Positions 57,543-63,930 of a DNA stretch of 64,000 nt are shown in pieces. Source of the stretch: Mycolicibacterium tokaiense (GTDB taxonomy: Bacteria; Actinomycetota; Actinomycetes; Mycobacteriales; Mycobacteriaceae); NCBI RefSeq assembly GCF_010725885.1, contig NZ_AP022600.1:3348001-3412000 (forward strand). The letters run 5' to 3'. Made by a program: the position numbers and the translations under genes. Numbering within the stretch: position 1 is the first letter of the stretch; each line of letters starts with the position of its first letter. The notes under the pieces are model-generated. The model was not told where the DNA came from. It did not search any database and saw nothing but the letters and a program-made list of their open reading frames with translations.

Positions 57543-59234
<1,692 letters not shown>

Positions 59235-59248
59235 GAACAGTTCCACGC

Positions 59249-59284
59249 ACAACACCCCCGGTCCGAGTGGGCCGGGGGTGTTGT
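59249..59284 (+). terminator. Terminator of groES-groEL1
   Basis: A 16-bp stem with one mismatch (arms ACAACACCCCCGGTCC and GGGCCGGGGGTGTTGT) and a GAGT loop, 14 bp after the groEL1 stop. Confidence 0.8.
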
Positions 59285-59473
59285 CGTCTGTGGTGGCGCC
59301 GAGAGTGGGGCCTGTGCACAGAATCGAGCGGGAATGCGTGCATAAGGCCCACGGTCGCACCGGGTGACCACTCTCACCCGAGCGACGACAAATTCACTTG
59401 CCTGACACGAGTAAAATCACTTTTGCTCGTGACTCTTGGGGGCCGAGCGGCACATTCGTTGGTGGAGGGCACT

Positions 59474-60931
59474 GTGGTGGAGTCGACCCCTGGGCGCACG
59501 GGGCAGGCGTGGTTGGAGCGTCAGCGCGGAATGCTGGCCCGGATGGTGCGCGAGACCGATCCGCCCACCGACACCCTGCCGCGCATCTCCGCGACGGCCG
59601 GGCACGATGACGCCGACTACCGCCTGGTCGACGAGGTGCTCGACCTCGCAGGCAACATCGGCGCCATCCTGATGGCGTCGGGCATGTCCGCGACCTCCAC
59701 CATGGATCAGGTGACGGCCGTCGCCGCCGCCTACGGCGTCAAGCGCTGCGAGGTCGACGTCATCAACACGACCATCCACATCGCCGCCTACCGCGGACCG
59801 TCCGCTCCGGCGGCCAGCACATTGCACATCGTGCAGTCGCGCTCCATCGACTTCAGCCGCCTGGCCGCAGTCGAGCGCCTGCTGGACCGCATCCGTGCCG
59901 GCCAGATCTCGCCGACCGACGCGCGTCAGGAGCTGAGCGCCATCATCACCGCGCCGCACCCGTACAAGCGTTGGATCGCCACCCTGGCCTGGGGTGCGCT
60001 GGCCTACGCCACCGCCGGCACCCTGGGCGGCACCTGGCTGGTGTGCCTGATCAGTGCCTTGAGTGCGATGACCATCGACCGGGTGAACCGCCGGCTCAAC
60101 CGGCACGGCCTGCCGTTCTTCTTCCAGTACGTGGTGGGCGGGGCCATCGCGACGGCGCCGCCGATCCTGTTGTACTGGCTCGGTCCCACCATCGGGCTGC
60201 AATTCAGGCCCAGCGTGGCGATCGCGGCAGGCCTGGTGGTACTGCTGGCCGGGCTGTCACTGGTCGGGTCGGTGGGCGACGTCATCAGCGGCGCTCCGGT
60301 GACCGCGGCGGGCCGGTTCTTCGAGCTGGTGATGATGACCGGGGCGACCATCGCCGGGGTGGCCATCGTGCTGCACTTCGCCTACCAATTCGGTGCGCCG
60401 TTCGTCGCCATCAACGGCTATGCGCCCCCGGCCCTGGCCGAACTGCCCGCCCGCGTGGCCTTCGGCGCGGCCAGCGCGGCGGCCTACGCCCTGGCCTGTT
60501 ATGCCGAACGCAGCGCGGCGCTGGCCGCCGGATTCGGCGGAGCGGCCGGCACGGTGGTGTTCCTGGCCGCCACCGGCGCCGGGGTGGGCGCTGTGGTGGC
60601 ATCATTCGCCGCGGCTGTCGCCATCGGGCTGGTGGGCCGGCTGATGGAGCGGCGCAACCTGGCACCGCCGCTGGTCGTCTCGATCGCGGGCATTGTGCCG
60701 CTGCTGCCCGGTCTGGCTCTGCTGCACGGCGTATACGCCATCCTCAACGATCAGCACGCCGTCGGCTTCGCCTCGGTGCTGAGCGCGTTCTTGGTCGGCA
60801 CCGCGTTGGCCGCCGGCGTCACGCTCGGTGAGTGGAGCTCGTGGAAGGTGCGCCGCCGGCGTCTCCAGGCCCGCCGCGGCAACCGCCGGCTGCGCCTGTC
60901 CGGGCACGCTGCGCTCAGCTCAGCGGACTGA
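59474..60931 (+). CDS. ThrE-type threonine/serine exporter family protein
   Basis: Inner-membrane protein of 485 aa with the two ThrE parts. A soluble N-terminal domain (DUF1212) includes LVDEVLDLAGNIGAILMASG and VKRCEVDVINTTIHIAAYRG; then about ten transmembrane helices follow, with GLSLVGSVGDVISGAPVTAA and the second-module PLLPGLALLHGVYAILNDQ. In Corynebacterium, ThrE exports threonine and serine. The start is uncertain: GTG at 59474 or 59477, both near GGAGGG; a longer upstream frame has no family similarity. It follows the groEL1 terminator and has its own promoter region. Confidence 0.85.
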   Translation: MVESTPGRTGQAWLERQRGMLARMVRETDPPTDTLPRISATAGHDDADYRLVDEVLDLAGNIGAILMASGMSATSTMDQVTAVAAAYGVKRCEVDVINTTIHIAAYRGPSAPAASTLHIVQSRSIDFSRLAAVERLLDRIRAGQISPTDARQELSAIITAPHPYKRWIATLAWGALAYATAGTLGGTWLVCLISALSAMTIDRVNRRLNRHGLPFFFQYVVGGAIATAPPILLYWLGPTIGLQFRPSVAIAAGLVVLLAGLSLVGSVGDVISGAPVTAAGRFFELVMMTGATIAGVAIVLHFAYQFGAPFVAINGYAPPALAELPARVAFGAASAAAYALACYAERSAALAAGFGGAAGTVVFLAATGAGVGAVVASFAAAVAIGLVGRLMERRNLAPPLVVSIAGIVPLLPGLALLHGVYAILNDQHAVGFASVLSAFLVGTALAAGVTLGEWSSWKVRRRRLQARRGNRRLRLSGHAALSSAD

Positions 60932-60932
60932 C

Positions 60933-61412
60933 CTAGACGGGCACCCGGGTGAGCAGTTCGTCGAGGGCCACCAGGTCCAGATAGGCGACCACCCGGGTCA
61001 CCTGACCACCCGCCATGGTCATCACCCAGTTGTATTCGTTGACATACGGCAGGCCGTCACGGGCGGTGGCCGTTCCGCGCCACCGTGCCACCACCTGATC
61101 GCCCTGGGCGATCAGCTCGTGCACCTCGGCGGTGATCTGACCGTTCAGGCGCGACGTGATGGGGCCGGAGCCGTTGGCCAGGAACTCCTGCCGCGAGGTG
61201 TAGGTGGAGGGCGCCTCGGCGCGGGCCACCGTCCAGTGCACGTCGTCGGCCAGGATTCCGTAGAACGTGTCGGGGGCGCCGACACCGCGGTTGAACGCAT
61301 CGGCCACGATCGTGATGTTGTCGGGCGCAGCCTCCTCGGCGCCGGCGCGTGGCGCGGCGGCCAGCGCGATCAGCGAACAGACAAGTACGGCAAGCATTTT
61401 CGGGTATGACAT
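60933..61412 (-). CDS. Secreted SnoaL/NTF2-like protein
   Basis: Protein of 159 aa with an N-terminal signal peptide (LAVLVCSLIALAAAPRAGAE, cleavage probably after AGA). The mature part is an NTF2-like fold: ITIVADAFNRGVGAPDTFYG, DDVHWTVARAEAPSTYTSRQ and DGLPYVNEYNWVMTMAGGQV. It probably binds a small ligand outside the membrane; function unknown. ATG at 61412 is chosen for the signal peptide. It converges on the ThrE-like gene with 1 bp between them. Confidence 0.8.
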   Translation of the reverse strand: MSYPKMLAVLVCSLIALAAAPRAGAEEAAPDNITIVADAFNRGVGAPDTFYGILADDVHWTVARAEAPSTYTSRQEFLANGSGPITSRLNGQITAEVHELIAQGDQVVARWRGTATARDGLPYVNEYNWVMTMAGGQVTRVVAYLDLVALDELLTRVPV

Positions 61413-61499
61413 ACCTGGCACGGTAGGTCCGATGCGGGCCGCAGGGCAGGGTGCAGTGCTCCCAGGATCACCCCGATTCGGCGATCGCACGCCCCGGGG

Positions 61500-61505
61500 T
61501 ATACC
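61500..61505 (+). promoter_or_regulatory. -10 box of the aroG leader transcript
   Basis: TATACC, 9 bp upstream of the leader-peptide GTG at 61515. A transcription start 7-10 bp downstream would place the GTG at or very near the RNA 5' end, so the leader would be translated as a leaderless mRNA. No clear -35 box was seen. Confidence 0.55.
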
Positions 61506-61514
61506 CTGGTCCGC

Positions 61515-61589
61515 GTGACCATCGGTGTGCGTGCCAGCTATTGGCGCTTTATCAAGGCTCCGGGCGGAGCCGATACAGCGCAGCGCTAA
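61515..61589 (+). CDS. aroG leader peptide with Tyr-Trp-Arg-Phe
   Basis: A 24-codon frame (GTG to TAA) encoding MTIGVRASYWRFIKAPGGAD and then TAQR. Tyr, Trp and Phe, the three end products of the pathway, occur within four codons (61539-61550). The codons directly precede a hairpin, and a T-tailed terminator lies 24 bp after the stop, before the DAHP synthase gene. This is the layout of ribosome-mediated attenuation. No ribosome-binding site precedes it; translation is probably leaderless. The assignment rests on position, composition and adjacent structures. Confidence 0.72.
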   Translation: MTIGVRASYWRFIKAPGGADTAQR

Positions 61590-61610
61590 GCAACGCATCC
61601 ACCCGGAGCC
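61556..61610 (+). promoter_or_regulatory. Alternative RNA pairings in the aroG leader
   Basis: GGCTCCGGG (61556-61564) can form a local 6-bp hairpin with GGAGCC (61566-61571) or a perfect 9-bp helix with CCCGGAGCC (61602-61610). The second pairing ends 2 bp before the terminator stem. The switch is plausible, but the full antiterminator was not resolved. Confidence 0.5.
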
Positions 61611-61612
61611 CA

Positions 61613-61640
61613 GGCAGTGACCACACGGTCGCTGCCTTTT
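61613..61640 (+). terminator. Intrinsic terminator in the aroG leader
   Basis: GGCAGTGACC pairs with GGTCGCTGCC (10 bp, one G-T wobble) around the loop ACAC and is followed by TTTT. It lies 57 bp before the aroG start, in an otherwise untranslated leader, as expected for an attenuator. Confidence 0.75.
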
Positions 61641-61696
61641 GTATGTCAGGGGCACCGGAGGTTTGCACTGGTGCCCAGTATCAGAAAGGCACCCCA

Positions 61697-62746
61697 GTGA
61701 ACCTGGCGCAGATCGCCCCTCAGAACACCTCCGACCGGCGAATCCGCAGTTTCAGCGAGATCCCCAGCCCGCACGACGTGCTCACCGAATTCCCGCTGGG
61801 CGCCCGCCGCGCCGAGCGGGTGGCCCGCGACCGTGACGAAATCGCCGACATCCTGGCCGGTCGCGACGACCGCCTGCTCGTGGTGGTCGGGCCGTGCTCG
61901 GTGCACGACCCGGCGGCTGCGCTGGAGTACGCCAGCCGGCTGGTCAAGATCGCCGACGAACTGCGCGACCGGCTCAAGATCGTGATGCGGGTGTACTTCG
62001 AGAAGCCCCGCACCACGATCGGCTGGAAAGGCCTGATCAACGACCCGGACATGGACGGCACCTTCGACGTGGCGCGTGGCCTGCGCACCGCCCGCCAGCT
62101 GTTGCTCGACATCATCGACATCGGCCTGCCGGTGGGCTGCGAGTTCCTCGAACCCACCAGCCCGCAGTACATCGCCGACGCGGTGGCGTGGGGCGCCATC
62201 GGCGCCCGTACCACCGAGTCGCAGGTGCACCGCCAGCTGGCCTCGGGACTGTCGATGCCGGTCGGGTTCAAGAACGGCACCGACGGCAACGTCCAGGTGG
62301 CCGTCGACGGTGTGGGCGCTGCATCGGCCGCGCATGTGTTCTTCGGGATGGACGACATGGGCCGCGGCGCGTTGGTGAGCACCATGGGTAACGACGACTG
62401 CCACGTCATCCTGCGCGGCGGTACCGACGGCCCCAATTACGATGCCGCCGCGGTGACTTCGGCCGCTGCCACCTTGGCCACGGCCGGCCTGCCGGGTCGC
62501 GTCGTGATCGACTGCAGCCACGCCAATTCCGGGAAGGATCACATCCGCCAGGCCGTGGTGGCCACCGAGGTGGCACAGCTGGTGCGCGACGGCCTGCCGA
62601 TCAGCGGAGTGATGCTGGAGAGCTTCCTGGTCGCCGGTGCACAGTCCCCTGATGCCCGGCCGTTGACCTACGGCCAGTCGGTCACCGACAAGTGCATGGA
62701 CTGGGCGGCAACCGATTCGGTGTTGCGCGAGCTGGCCCGCGGCTAG
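61697..62746 (+). CDS. aroG: 3-deoxy-7-phosphoheptulonate (DAHP) synthase, class I
   Basis: First enzyme of the shikimate pathway, joining phosphoenolpyruvate and erythrose-4-phosphate. The 349-aa protein is of the type I-alpha (E. coli AroFGH) form: LLVVVGPCSVHDPAAALEYA, MRVYFEKPRTTIGWKGLIND, LPVGCEFLEPTSPQYIADAV and IDCSHANSGKDHIRQ. GTG at 61697 with AAAGG upstream; the frame extends further upstream but crosses the leader and terminator. Probably regulated by transcript attenuation. M. tuberculosis relies on a class II enzyme, as I recall, so this may be a second isoenzyme. Confidence 0.93.
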   Translation: MNLAQIAPQNTSDRRIRSFSEIPSPHDVLTEFPLGARRAERVARDRDEIADILAGRDDRLLVVVGPCSVHDPAAALEYASRLVKIADELRDRLKIVMRVYFEKPRTTIGWKGLINDPDMDGTFDVARGLRTARQLLLDIIDIGLPVGCEFLEPTSPQYIADAVAWGAIGARTTESQVHRQLASGLSMPVGFKNGTDGNVQVAVDGVGAASAAHVFFGMDDMGRGALVSTMGNDDCHVILRGGTDGPNYDAAAVTSAAATLATAGLPGRVVIDCSHANSGKDHIRQAVVATEVAQLVRDGLPISGVMLESFLVAGAQSPDARPLTYGQSVTDKCMDWAATDSVLRELARG

Positions 62747-62757
62747 CCACCGCTGGT

Positions 62758-63930
62758 ATGACGGGCACAACCCGGGCGGGGGTGGTCGTCGTCGGTCTCG
62801 GGTCCATGGGGTCGATGGCGTTGTGGCAGTTGGCCGAACGCGGTGTCGACGTGGTGGGCGTCGAGCAGTTCGGCCGGGTTCACACCTGGGGCGCGTACGC
62901 CGGTGAGTCACGGTTGTTCCGGGTGGCTGCCAAAGAGGGCAGGGTGTTCACTCCGGCACTGCTGCGCGCACGCGAACTCTGGGTGCAGCTGGGTGCGGCG
63001 TACGGCCAGGACCTGCTGATCCCCGCGGGCGCGCTGAGCGTGGGGCCACGTGGCCATCCCGACCTGGAGGCCGGCCTGGCGGCCATCGCCGATCTGTCTC
63101 TGCCGCATGAGGTACTCGACGCCGGGCAGCTGCGGGCCCGCTTTCCACAGTTCTACGCCGATGACGGGGACATCGGGGTGCTGGACACCCTCGGCGGGGT
63201 GGTGCGGCCCGAGTTGGCGGTGGTGGCGGCCACCGAGCTGGCGCTGGCGCGCGGCGCCACCACCCACTACGGCACCACGGTGAAAGCCATCGAGCCCGGC
63301 CCGGCGGGCGTCCGGGTGGTCACCGACCACGGCGACCTGTTGGCCGAGAGGGCAGTGGTGAGCGCTGGGCCGTGGACCGCGCGGCTGCTGCCGGAGCTGG
63401 ACGATGTCGTCAAGGTGGTCAGCTACCCGCTGATCTGGTTCCTGCCCCGCCACATCGACATGTTCACGCCGGACCGCCTTCCGGGGTTCATGCGTGACCT
63501 GCACGGTGTGCACGCGTTCGGCATACCCAGCCTCGACGGCTACAGCATCAAGGCCACTCCCGACATGCATCTCCCGCTGGCCGACGACTGGTCCGACCGC
63601 ACCACCGCACTGACCGATGCGCAGCTGCAGCGAGCCGGCGTCCAGATGCAGAAGATGATCCCCGACCTGATCCCGGCCGCGTCCCGGTGGTCGGTGCACG
63701 CAGAATCGTTGGCCGCCAACAAGATGCCCATCATCGACAGCATGGCCGAGGGCCGCATCGTGGTGGCGACCGCGCTGAGTGGCAACGGATTCAAATTTGC
63801 GCCCGTCTGGGGCGAGGTGTTGGCGGATCTCGCCGCCGTGGGGGAGTCCCGATTCTCCGAGGCGGTCTTCACCGTCGATCACCACAAGAAGTTCGCGCTC
63901 TGGGGAGTGAGCGCAACCCGCACCGGCTAG
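62758..63930 (+). CDS. Sarcosine oxidase/N-methyltryptophan oxidase-like flavoprotein
   Basis: FAD-dependent amine oxidase of 390 aa. The dinucleotide-binding turn is VVVVGLGSMGSMALWQLAER, followed by HTWGAYAGESRLFRVAAKEG, a family hallmark, and FSGHGFKF-like ALSGNGFKFAPVWGEVLADL near the end. Monomeric sarcosine oxidases bind FAD covalently through a Cys just before the PIID/FIID segment; here that region reads SVHAESLAANKMPIID with His at the position, so a covalent Cys link is not expected. Substrate unknown: a secondary amine or N-methyl amino acid. ATG at 62758, 11 bp after aroG. Confidence 0.85.
   Translation: MTGTTRAGVVVVGLGSMGSMALWQLAERGVDVVGVEQFGRVHTWGAYAGESRLFRVAAKEGRVFTPALLRARELWVQLGAAYGQDLLIPAGALSVGPRGHPDLEAGLAAIADLSLPHEVLDAGQLRARFPQFYADDGDIGVLDTLGGVVRPELAVVAATELALARGATTHYGTTVKAIEPGPAGVRVVTDHGDLLAERAVVSAGPWTARLLPELDDVVKVVSYPLIWFLPRHIDMFTPDRLPGFMRDLHGVHAFGIPSLDGYSIKATPDMHLPLADDWSDRTTALTDAQLQRAGVQMQKMIPDLIPAASRWSVHAESLAANKMPIIDSMAEGRIVVATALSGNGFKFAPVWGEVLADLAAVGESRFSEAVFTVDHHKKFALWGVSATRTG

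Follow-up and report, generated by a model that had tools for sequence, protein, structure and literature searches.

Our results point to a real, strongly conserved switching RNA upstream of the type I DAHP synthase gene of Mycolicibacterium tokaiense, a widely distributed leader, here in mycobacterial form, that is probably of the aroR kind. The reading that we favor, with modest confidence, is that it is a ribosome-stalling attenuator of this gene, a sensor of aromatic tRNA charging that would act through a translational relay and, in most species, through a terminator as well. The element lies in a window, by which we mean the whole 64,000-nucleotide stretch of contig NZ_AP022600.1 that was analyzed, and all coordinates below are positions within it.

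The first-pass annotation had identified the gene behind the leader as a DAHP synthase. That identification stands and can be refined: the 349-residue product matches PF00793 and TIGR00034 (aroFGH), making it a type I (E. coli-like) enzyme, and a separate type II DAHP synthase is encoded elsewhere in the same genome. Type II is the class known from M. tuberculosis. The reading frame of the type I gene is open upstream across the entire leader (61451-62746, + strand), so that automatic annotation may set the start of the gene too early and mask the leader. Directly 3' of the gene is an N-methyl-L-tryptophan oxidase-like gene (62758-63930, + strand; NF008425, 271.7 bits against a cut-off of 257). 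We rejected an operon with this oxidase, given that a homolog was absent within about 1.5 kb downstream in 31 of 31 relatives. On the other side lie a divergent gene for a SnoaL-like protein (60936-61409, - strand), the threonine/serine exporter gene thrE (59270-60928, + strand), and a gene for a Cpn60 chaperonin (57609-59231, + strand). The features of the element are as follows, with the swap test described further below.

61502..61507, + strand: -10 element TACCCT, 7 nt before the leader GTG (TANNNT at a spacing of 6-8 nt in 179/179 parsed loci)
61515..61589, + strand: leader ORF of 24 codons without a Shine-Dalgarno sequence (ORF translation; SD-like words before the start in 5/179 loci)
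61539..61550, + strand: Tyr-Trp-Arg-Phe as sensor codons, at 17, 14, 11, and 8 nt ahead of helix B (motif and spacing counts)
61544..61553, + strand: A arm (end of the Trp codon, then the Arg-Phe-Ile codons), pairing with A' at 61572-61581 with one U-C mismatch here (swap test 0/1000, and 0/5000 in 22 distant loci)
61556..61567, + strand: B arm, pairing with B' (61566-61571) or with C (B:C 0/1000, 0/5000)
61566..61571, + strand: B' arm, nearly invariant, which leaves covariation uninformative (29/2000, 970/5000)
61572..61581, + strand: A' arm (swap tests, pair counts)
61599..61610, + strand: C arm, pairing with B or, around the terminator hairpin, with E (C:P1 0/1000, 1/5000; second family 11/2000)
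61612..61640, + strand: D:D' terminator-like hairpin and T tail, 61612-61622 with 61627-61637 (pair counts, terminator scan, T counts)
61650..61658, + strand: E arm GGGCACCGG, pairing with C or F (swap tests)
61668..61676, + strand: F arm CTGGTGCCC, pairing with E or the Shine-Dalgarno region (swap tests)
61683..61693, + strand: Shine-Dalgarno sequence AGAAAGG overlapping GGCACC, which F can cover (sequence, P2:G swap tests)
61697..62746, + strand: type I DAHP synthase gene with GTG start (PF00793, 291.7 bits; TIGR00034, 497.2 bits)

The leader runs from a GTG at 61515 to a TAA at 61587-61589 and encodes MTIGVRASYWRFIKAPGGADTAQR, in which Ser-Tyr-Trp-Arg-Phe occupies codons 8-12, just as the first reading of this DNA had it. 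That reading had also proposed leaderless translation, and the layout across relatives agrees. Specifically, a TANNNT box stands 7 nt before the leader start in 164 of 179 parsed loci, 6 nt before it in 14, and 8 nt before it in 1 (159, 13, and 1 of 173 distinct loci), with other spacings of up to 24 nt occurring only three times in the 179; these counts are somewhat favored by our script, which preferred the start with a box where several in-frame starts were possible. In the wider set of 192 loci with a recognizable core, from which a later parse dropped 11 (L010-L013, L015, L028, L047, L063, L066, L074, and L199), the box precedes the leader start in 189, the exceptions being L043, L051, and L074. 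Of the 179 loci, 5 have an SD-like word ahead of the leader start, vs 178 with one at the DAHP synthase start. Transcription is predicted to start at or adjoining 61515. The sensor codons are placed with similar regularity before helix B, with Tyr at 17 nt in 169 of the 179 loci, Trp at 14 nt in 171, Arg at 11 nt in 172, and Phe at 8 nt in 178; among distinct loci, the counts for Tyr, Trp, and Phe are 163, 165, and 172 of 173. Together, the conserved spacing of the box and that of the codons exclude a chance occurrence of the leader. Furthermore, the leader RNA folds better than its shuffled counterparts (z of -4.6, with 0 of 200 shuffles as good). From the codons present, it is plausible that a single cassette senses Phe, Tyr, and Trp together.

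The element follows the gene among relatives. Of 396 genus genomes, 139 yielded a related DAHP synthase gene (E 1e-100), as did 322 of 401 genomes in a family sample (E 1e-80). The genus genes form two groups, with 84-94% and about 70-73% identity to the query, and the leader occurs in both. Upstream DNA was examined for 30 + 100 of the 139 genus places. The exact Tyr-Trp-Arg-Phe DNA motif lies upstream in 172 of 182 loci, or in 166 of 176 once six repeat places or loci with identical upstream DNA are removed; not included in this count are L008-L080, 73 loci of which many fall outside the phylum, and L211-L226, which comprise 15 repeats plus L211, a further genome that carries the motif, and L246 is without a protein match. 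The remaining ten loci carry the variants YWRFF, YRWRRF, YRWRF, SWRF, WRFYF (twice), RFYF, YRRF (twice), and YWLF. When whole genomes of the genus were searched, the motif with helix B was present in 133 of 138 genomes with the gene vs 0 of 254 without it, so that all 133 motif-bearing genomes of the 392 searched fall among the 139 of 396 with the gene. Of the gene-bearing genomes outside the 133, three have variants (G063, G253, G313), two lie outside the places whose upstream DNA was examined (G031, G055), and one lay outside the motif search (G393). In one genome (G172), the motif and its cut-off gene are on different contigs. Another (G230) has two motif copies: at its locus, L092, a tandem duplication of the leader and the first about 159 DAHP synthase codons lies ahead of the full gene, around 314 and 1340, and is either real or an assembly error.

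Beyond the genus, the codons differ and the architecture recurs. The Rhodococcus, Nocardia, and Amycolatopsis loci examined have leaders reading YFWF, with slots in the Rhodococcus type at 16, 13, 10, and 7 nt by a hand count that was left out of the tests, and the leader of one Streptomyces locus reads WYWRY. Two loci, L129 and L140, have lost the Trp codon (Tyr-Arg-Arg-Phe) and keep the helices, with compensating changes in D:D'. Three Corynebacterium-like loci (L266-L268), whose assignment to Corynebacterium we infer, combine RFYF leaders and a weak A:A' with B, C, and D:D' parts as found here. In a second family of 19 leaders (f21), which we would guess to be Micromonosporaceae, Tyr-Xaa-Tyr-Phe is found in 12 of 19, and 14 of 19 have no Trp codon before helix B; a Catellatospora locus (L009), a member of both the 47- and 22-locus sets used below, may stand close to it. 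A covariance model of the element matched once in the M. tokaiense genome; its further matches there were too weak to be taken as second copies (E from 0.37 up to 9.9), and two of these lie at the same place in antisense orientation. The model also matched in 42 of 296 genomes of a class sample (E 0.01), and in 30 of the 30 loci checked among those 42 matches, the 12 weakest lying outside the check, the element precedes a DAHP synthase gene. Rfam at its curated threshold gave no match in the window or in 14 related loci, and below threshold only four weak, unrelated ones. By these counts, the element is highly conserved, and variants of it stand before the gene in loci of Rhodococcus, Nocardia, Streptomyces, and other actinobacteria, the Corynebacterium-like loci included.

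The helices of the element are supported by covariation. Pair counts were made on an alignment of 46 loci. In the fold comprising A:A', B:B', and D:D', 92.3% of pairs are standard, covariation is 0.240 vs 0.164 (0 of 500 shuffles), and 12 pairs have changed on both sides vs 5.0 in shuffled alignments (A:A' 4, D:D' 8, B:B' 0). In the alternative fold with B:C (61556-61567 with 61599-61610) and D:D', the corresponding values are 93.4%, 0.190 vs 0.090 (0 of 500 shuffles), and 11 vs 4.4 (B:C 3), and one B:C pair is retained in 46 of 46 loci by means of five pair types. Past the terminator, the alignment is poor, so we compared the duplex energies of true partners with those of partners swapped among loci (swap test). 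When 105 region pairs were tested in 47 representatives, D:D', E:F, A:A', B:C, F:SD, A':S, C:E, and L:S each gave 0 of 1000. Among 22 distant loci, A:A', B:C, D:D', and E:F gave 0 of 5000, C:E 1, A':S 1, L:S 2, and F:SD 18, while the control pairs C:P2, P1:SD, B:P1, L:D, and A':D were nonsignificant, as was B:B', which is too invariant (970 of 5000). In the second family, D:D' gave 0 of 2000, E:F 1, F:SD 2, and C:E 11, so that E:F, F:SD, and C:E, the links leading past the terminator, recur there; three controls were nonsignificant, and likewise A:A' (117), B:C (414), and B:B' (1494 of 2000). The test ignores ancestry, its safeguard being the unaffected control pairs; an overlap between neighboring regions, of 2 nt for A' and S and of 4 nt for P1 and P2, may favor A':S and, slightly, E:F. 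Results for the Shine-Dalgarno stretch depend on start codons assigned by script, with 32 of 179 loci lacking a scored SD word; in the second family, 2 of 19 lack one and three stretches were assigned 30 to 81 nt away from where the start is expected. The helix L:S (61528-61535 with 61589-61596) joins the 5' part of the leader with the stretch before C; it is weak in the window, strong in L232 and L239, and would close the read-through hairpin in the absence of a ribosome. Taken together, the helices are conserved for A:A', B:C, and D:D', and following the first reading's suggestion to examine the Tyr, Trp, and Phe codons in relatives along with the helices has shown both to be conserved.

Downstream of the terminator, the covarying helices share bases. 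In the 47 representatives, E bases that pair with C also pair with F at a rate of 0.80 vs 0.59 expected from coverage, and F bases that pair with the Shine-Dalgarno region also pair with E at 0.71 vs 0.45. For the second family, the latter figure is 0.78 vs 0.54, and the overlap of C-pairing E bases with F is at expectation (0.72 vs 0.71). The helix over the Shine-Dalgarno sequence of the gene is hence an alternative to the upstream E:F, as both covary and share F bases. E resembles B, both being complementary to C, and in the window, GGCACC occurs both in E and in the Shine-Dalgarno region, each of which pairs with F. The comparison supports a chain of mutually exclusive helices that would run from the codon hairpin through B:C, C:E, and E:F to F:SD, past the terminator and up to the Shine-Dalgarno sequence of the gene.

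The position of the terminator bears on how such a chain could be read. A T-tailed terminator had been claimed between leader and gene, and an intrinsic terminator is indeed predicted there: an 11-bp stem occupies 61612-61637, with TTTGTATGTC after it and 59 nt from its end to the DAHP synthase GTG at 61697, and the scan of 61400-61800 found no other terminator-like site (shuffle mean, 0.1). This lends some weight to classical transcription attenuation, in which stalling would alter read-through of D:D' and the downstream helices would be incidental or would fix the level of translation, as does the description of C. glutamicum aroR, in the accessible text of a review, as transcription attenuation responding to Phe (PMC11802643). 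In 163 of 179 loci, the 8 nt counted from the last base of the stem include at least four T; yet some lineages have retained the hairpin with hardly any T tail (2 of 8 in L007, a Dietzia, 2 in L009, 2 in L260, and 1 in L262). The alternative helices reported before the terminator are present and conserved, but the classical anti-terminator role implied for them is not supported, because B:C ends 0-4 nt before the D stem, without overlap, in 47 of 47 representatives and D:D' is part of the minimum-energy fold in all 7 ribosome states (a 28-nt ribosome at Tyr, Trp, Arg, Phe, Ile, or stop, or absent). Given these two observations, stalling cannot free RNA polymerase by mutual exclusion of terminator and anti-terminator, barring an effect beyond pairing. 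Nor did any upstream segment covary convincingly with either D arm among the 105 region pairs; A:D was considered as an anti-terminator and rejected, at 4 of 1000 with weak energy, where about 0.4 such pairs would be expected among 105 tests. We therefore regard control at D:D' alone as possible but rather unlikely. From its sequence, we take D:D' to be a terminator in most species and not the sole output.

From the arrangement that the comparison of loci establishes (leader, codons, promoter spacing, helices, and their overlaps), we infer that the leader is translated and stalls ribosomes, in which direction the switch is thrown, that one state is kinetically trapped, and that the Shine-Dalgarno sequence is affected. 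In the attenuator that we favor, transcription would begin at or beside the leader GTG, where a ribosome would load without a Shine-Dalgarno sequence. If charged Tyr- or Trp-tRNA (and probably Phe-tRNA too) were scarce, the ribosome would stall and cover arm A, blocking the A:A'/B:B' hairpin so that B would pair with C; E would then be left to pair with F, and the Shine-Dalgarno sequence would stay open. If the leader were read through, A:A'/B:B' would close and C would be free to form C:E around the terminator hairpin, which would release F to pair with the Shine-Dalgarno sequence of the gene. D:D' would be present in both states, as an intrinsic terminator or a pause in most species. The sense of the switch, open on stalling and covered on read-through, would be that which a biosynthetic gene needs.

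Folding models bear out the early steps of this scheme more clearly than the last one. Placing a ribosome at the Tyr or Trp slot (17 or 14 nt) brought B:C above 0.5 in 47 of 47 models, and with a ribosome at the 8-nt slot, it formed in 47, 46, or 0 of 47 for an assumed ribosome edge of 12, 14, or 16 nt. B:C was also preferred without a ribosome in 32 of 47 models and with a ribosome at the stop codon in 42-43 of 47. In the window, it is favored in both of these situations, and E:F does not form in the model with C taken; the off state thus needs kinetic trapping, and under these models, A:A'/B:B' must be trapped before C is transcribed. With C free, C:E (at least 4 bp expected) forms in 42 of 47 loci and in 19 of 19 of the second family, and with C taken, E:F gains in 19 of 47 and loses in 4. 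Equilibrium folding showed no release of the Shine-Dalgarno sequence in the 47 loci (mean unpaired, 0.45 with C free vs 0.44 with C taken; more open when taken in 9, less in 8) and went slightly the wrong way in the second family (0.47 vs 0.40; more open in 3, less in 8). Across the 47, the average difference in the cost of opening the sequence is 0.9 kcal/mol (4.85 vs 3.97 in the window, and 4.82 with shuffled C); with C free, an excess of more than 1 kcal is seen in 19 of 47 loci (9 of 47 with shuffled C), or in 57 vs 29 of all 179 loci. The final release step is therefore unproven, being backed by covariation and unsupported by equilibrium energy models.

An argument can be made that the output is instead mRNA decay or Rho access, with C:E vs B:C changing which stretch of RNA is exposed and D:D' serving as a barrier or pause. 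The prediction of C:E with C free, which accessibility of the Shine-Dalgarno sequence does not follow, fits such an output, yet the covariation of F with the Shine-Dalgarno region would be left unexplained, and we consider this improbable. That the leader peptide itself is active, as a small protein or arrest peptide with the helices secondary, is very improbable, for although APGG is conserved in most leaders listed, it follows from the bases of B and B', leaders differ in length and in their C-terminal part (L126, L174, L240, and L266 stop during or right after APGG), and codon types change by lineage.

The attenuator with a translational relay may be one instance of something more general. 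We tentatively propose, as an idea that we would not yet call probable, a widespread actinobacterial relay attenuator in which a stalled ribosome would flip five successive exclusive helices, bypassing a terminator hairpin and ending at the Shine-Dalgarno sequence about 130 nt past helix B. The codon slots at 17, 14, 11, and 8 nt before B would be refilled by lineage (Tyr-Trp-Arg-Phe; Phe-Tyr-Phe; Tyr-Xaa-Tyr-Phe), so that the sensed amino acid would evolve while the RNA machine stays. If the relay is true, this would be an unusual design, as stalling in a leader would reach a ribosome-binding site past a terminator. More generally, our findings would extend one published Corynebacterium leader to a widespread RNA family with a defined anatomy and suggest that many actinobacteria equip the enzyme at the entry to aromatic amino acid synthesis with a leader-based gauge of its own. 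Whether one leader serves three amino acids, and whether its output is transcription or translation, can be tested now.

Leaderless Cys-rich uORFs of mycobacteria are reportedly the subject of Canestrari 2020. Such uORFs occur in mycobacteria according to the accessible part of PMC4633059, and the cysteine genes of M. smegmatis are termed regulated by translation attenuation in that of PMC13236596. They share with our element a leaderless leader ORF in mycobacteria and differ in amino acid and in genes, the comparison being confined to these properties. An earlier survey of actinobacterial amino acid leaders by Seliverstov in 2005 dealt with the same phylum by the same comparative logic and differs from our results in that, as far as its accessible text goes, conserved RNA structures were not observed upstream of phenylalanine/tyrosine operons (PMC1262725). 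For S. lividans, eight leader peptides are reported in the accessible text of PMC8079986, none of them for a DAHP synthase. Our literature search, which covered mostly non-subscription text without supplements, did not find a mycobacterial or wider actinobacterial form of the aroR leader described.

E. coli trpL is a ribosome-mediated transcription attenuator. With attenuators of this type, including the M. tuberculosis ilvB1 leader (PMC13236596, accessible part), our element shares a leader ORF with putative regulatory codons, alternative helices, and a predicted intrinsic terminator before a biosynthetic gene; in contrast to them, the helix favored by stalling here does not compete with the terminator stem. 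The nearest relative appears to be the C. glutamicum aroR leader, which precedes the DAHP synthase gene aroF (cg1129) (Mentz 2013, PMC4046766) and is also treated in PMC3890552, both as seen in their accessible text. In both, aromatic codons stand in a short leader immediately before a DAHP synthase gene. They differ in codons, Phe-Tyr-Phe there and Tyr-Trp-Arg-Phe here, and in reported control: the accessible text of the review describes transcription attenuation with a response to Phe and not to Tyr (PMC11802643, citing Neshat 2014) and mentions no relay to the Shine-Dalgarno sequence. A hand count in L266 places Phe slots at 14 and 8 nt and Tyr at 11, a spacing that is suggestive only as an argument about the response of C. 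glutamicum. The first-pass annotation had pointed to an attenuated aro gene in Corynebacterium, and the likely kinship is borne out by L266-L268, in which alignment and duplexes reveal the shared B, C, and D:D' architecture behind RFYF leaders; it is with these loci that the comparison was made. On this evidence, the published C. glutamicum aroR leader probably belongs to the same family.
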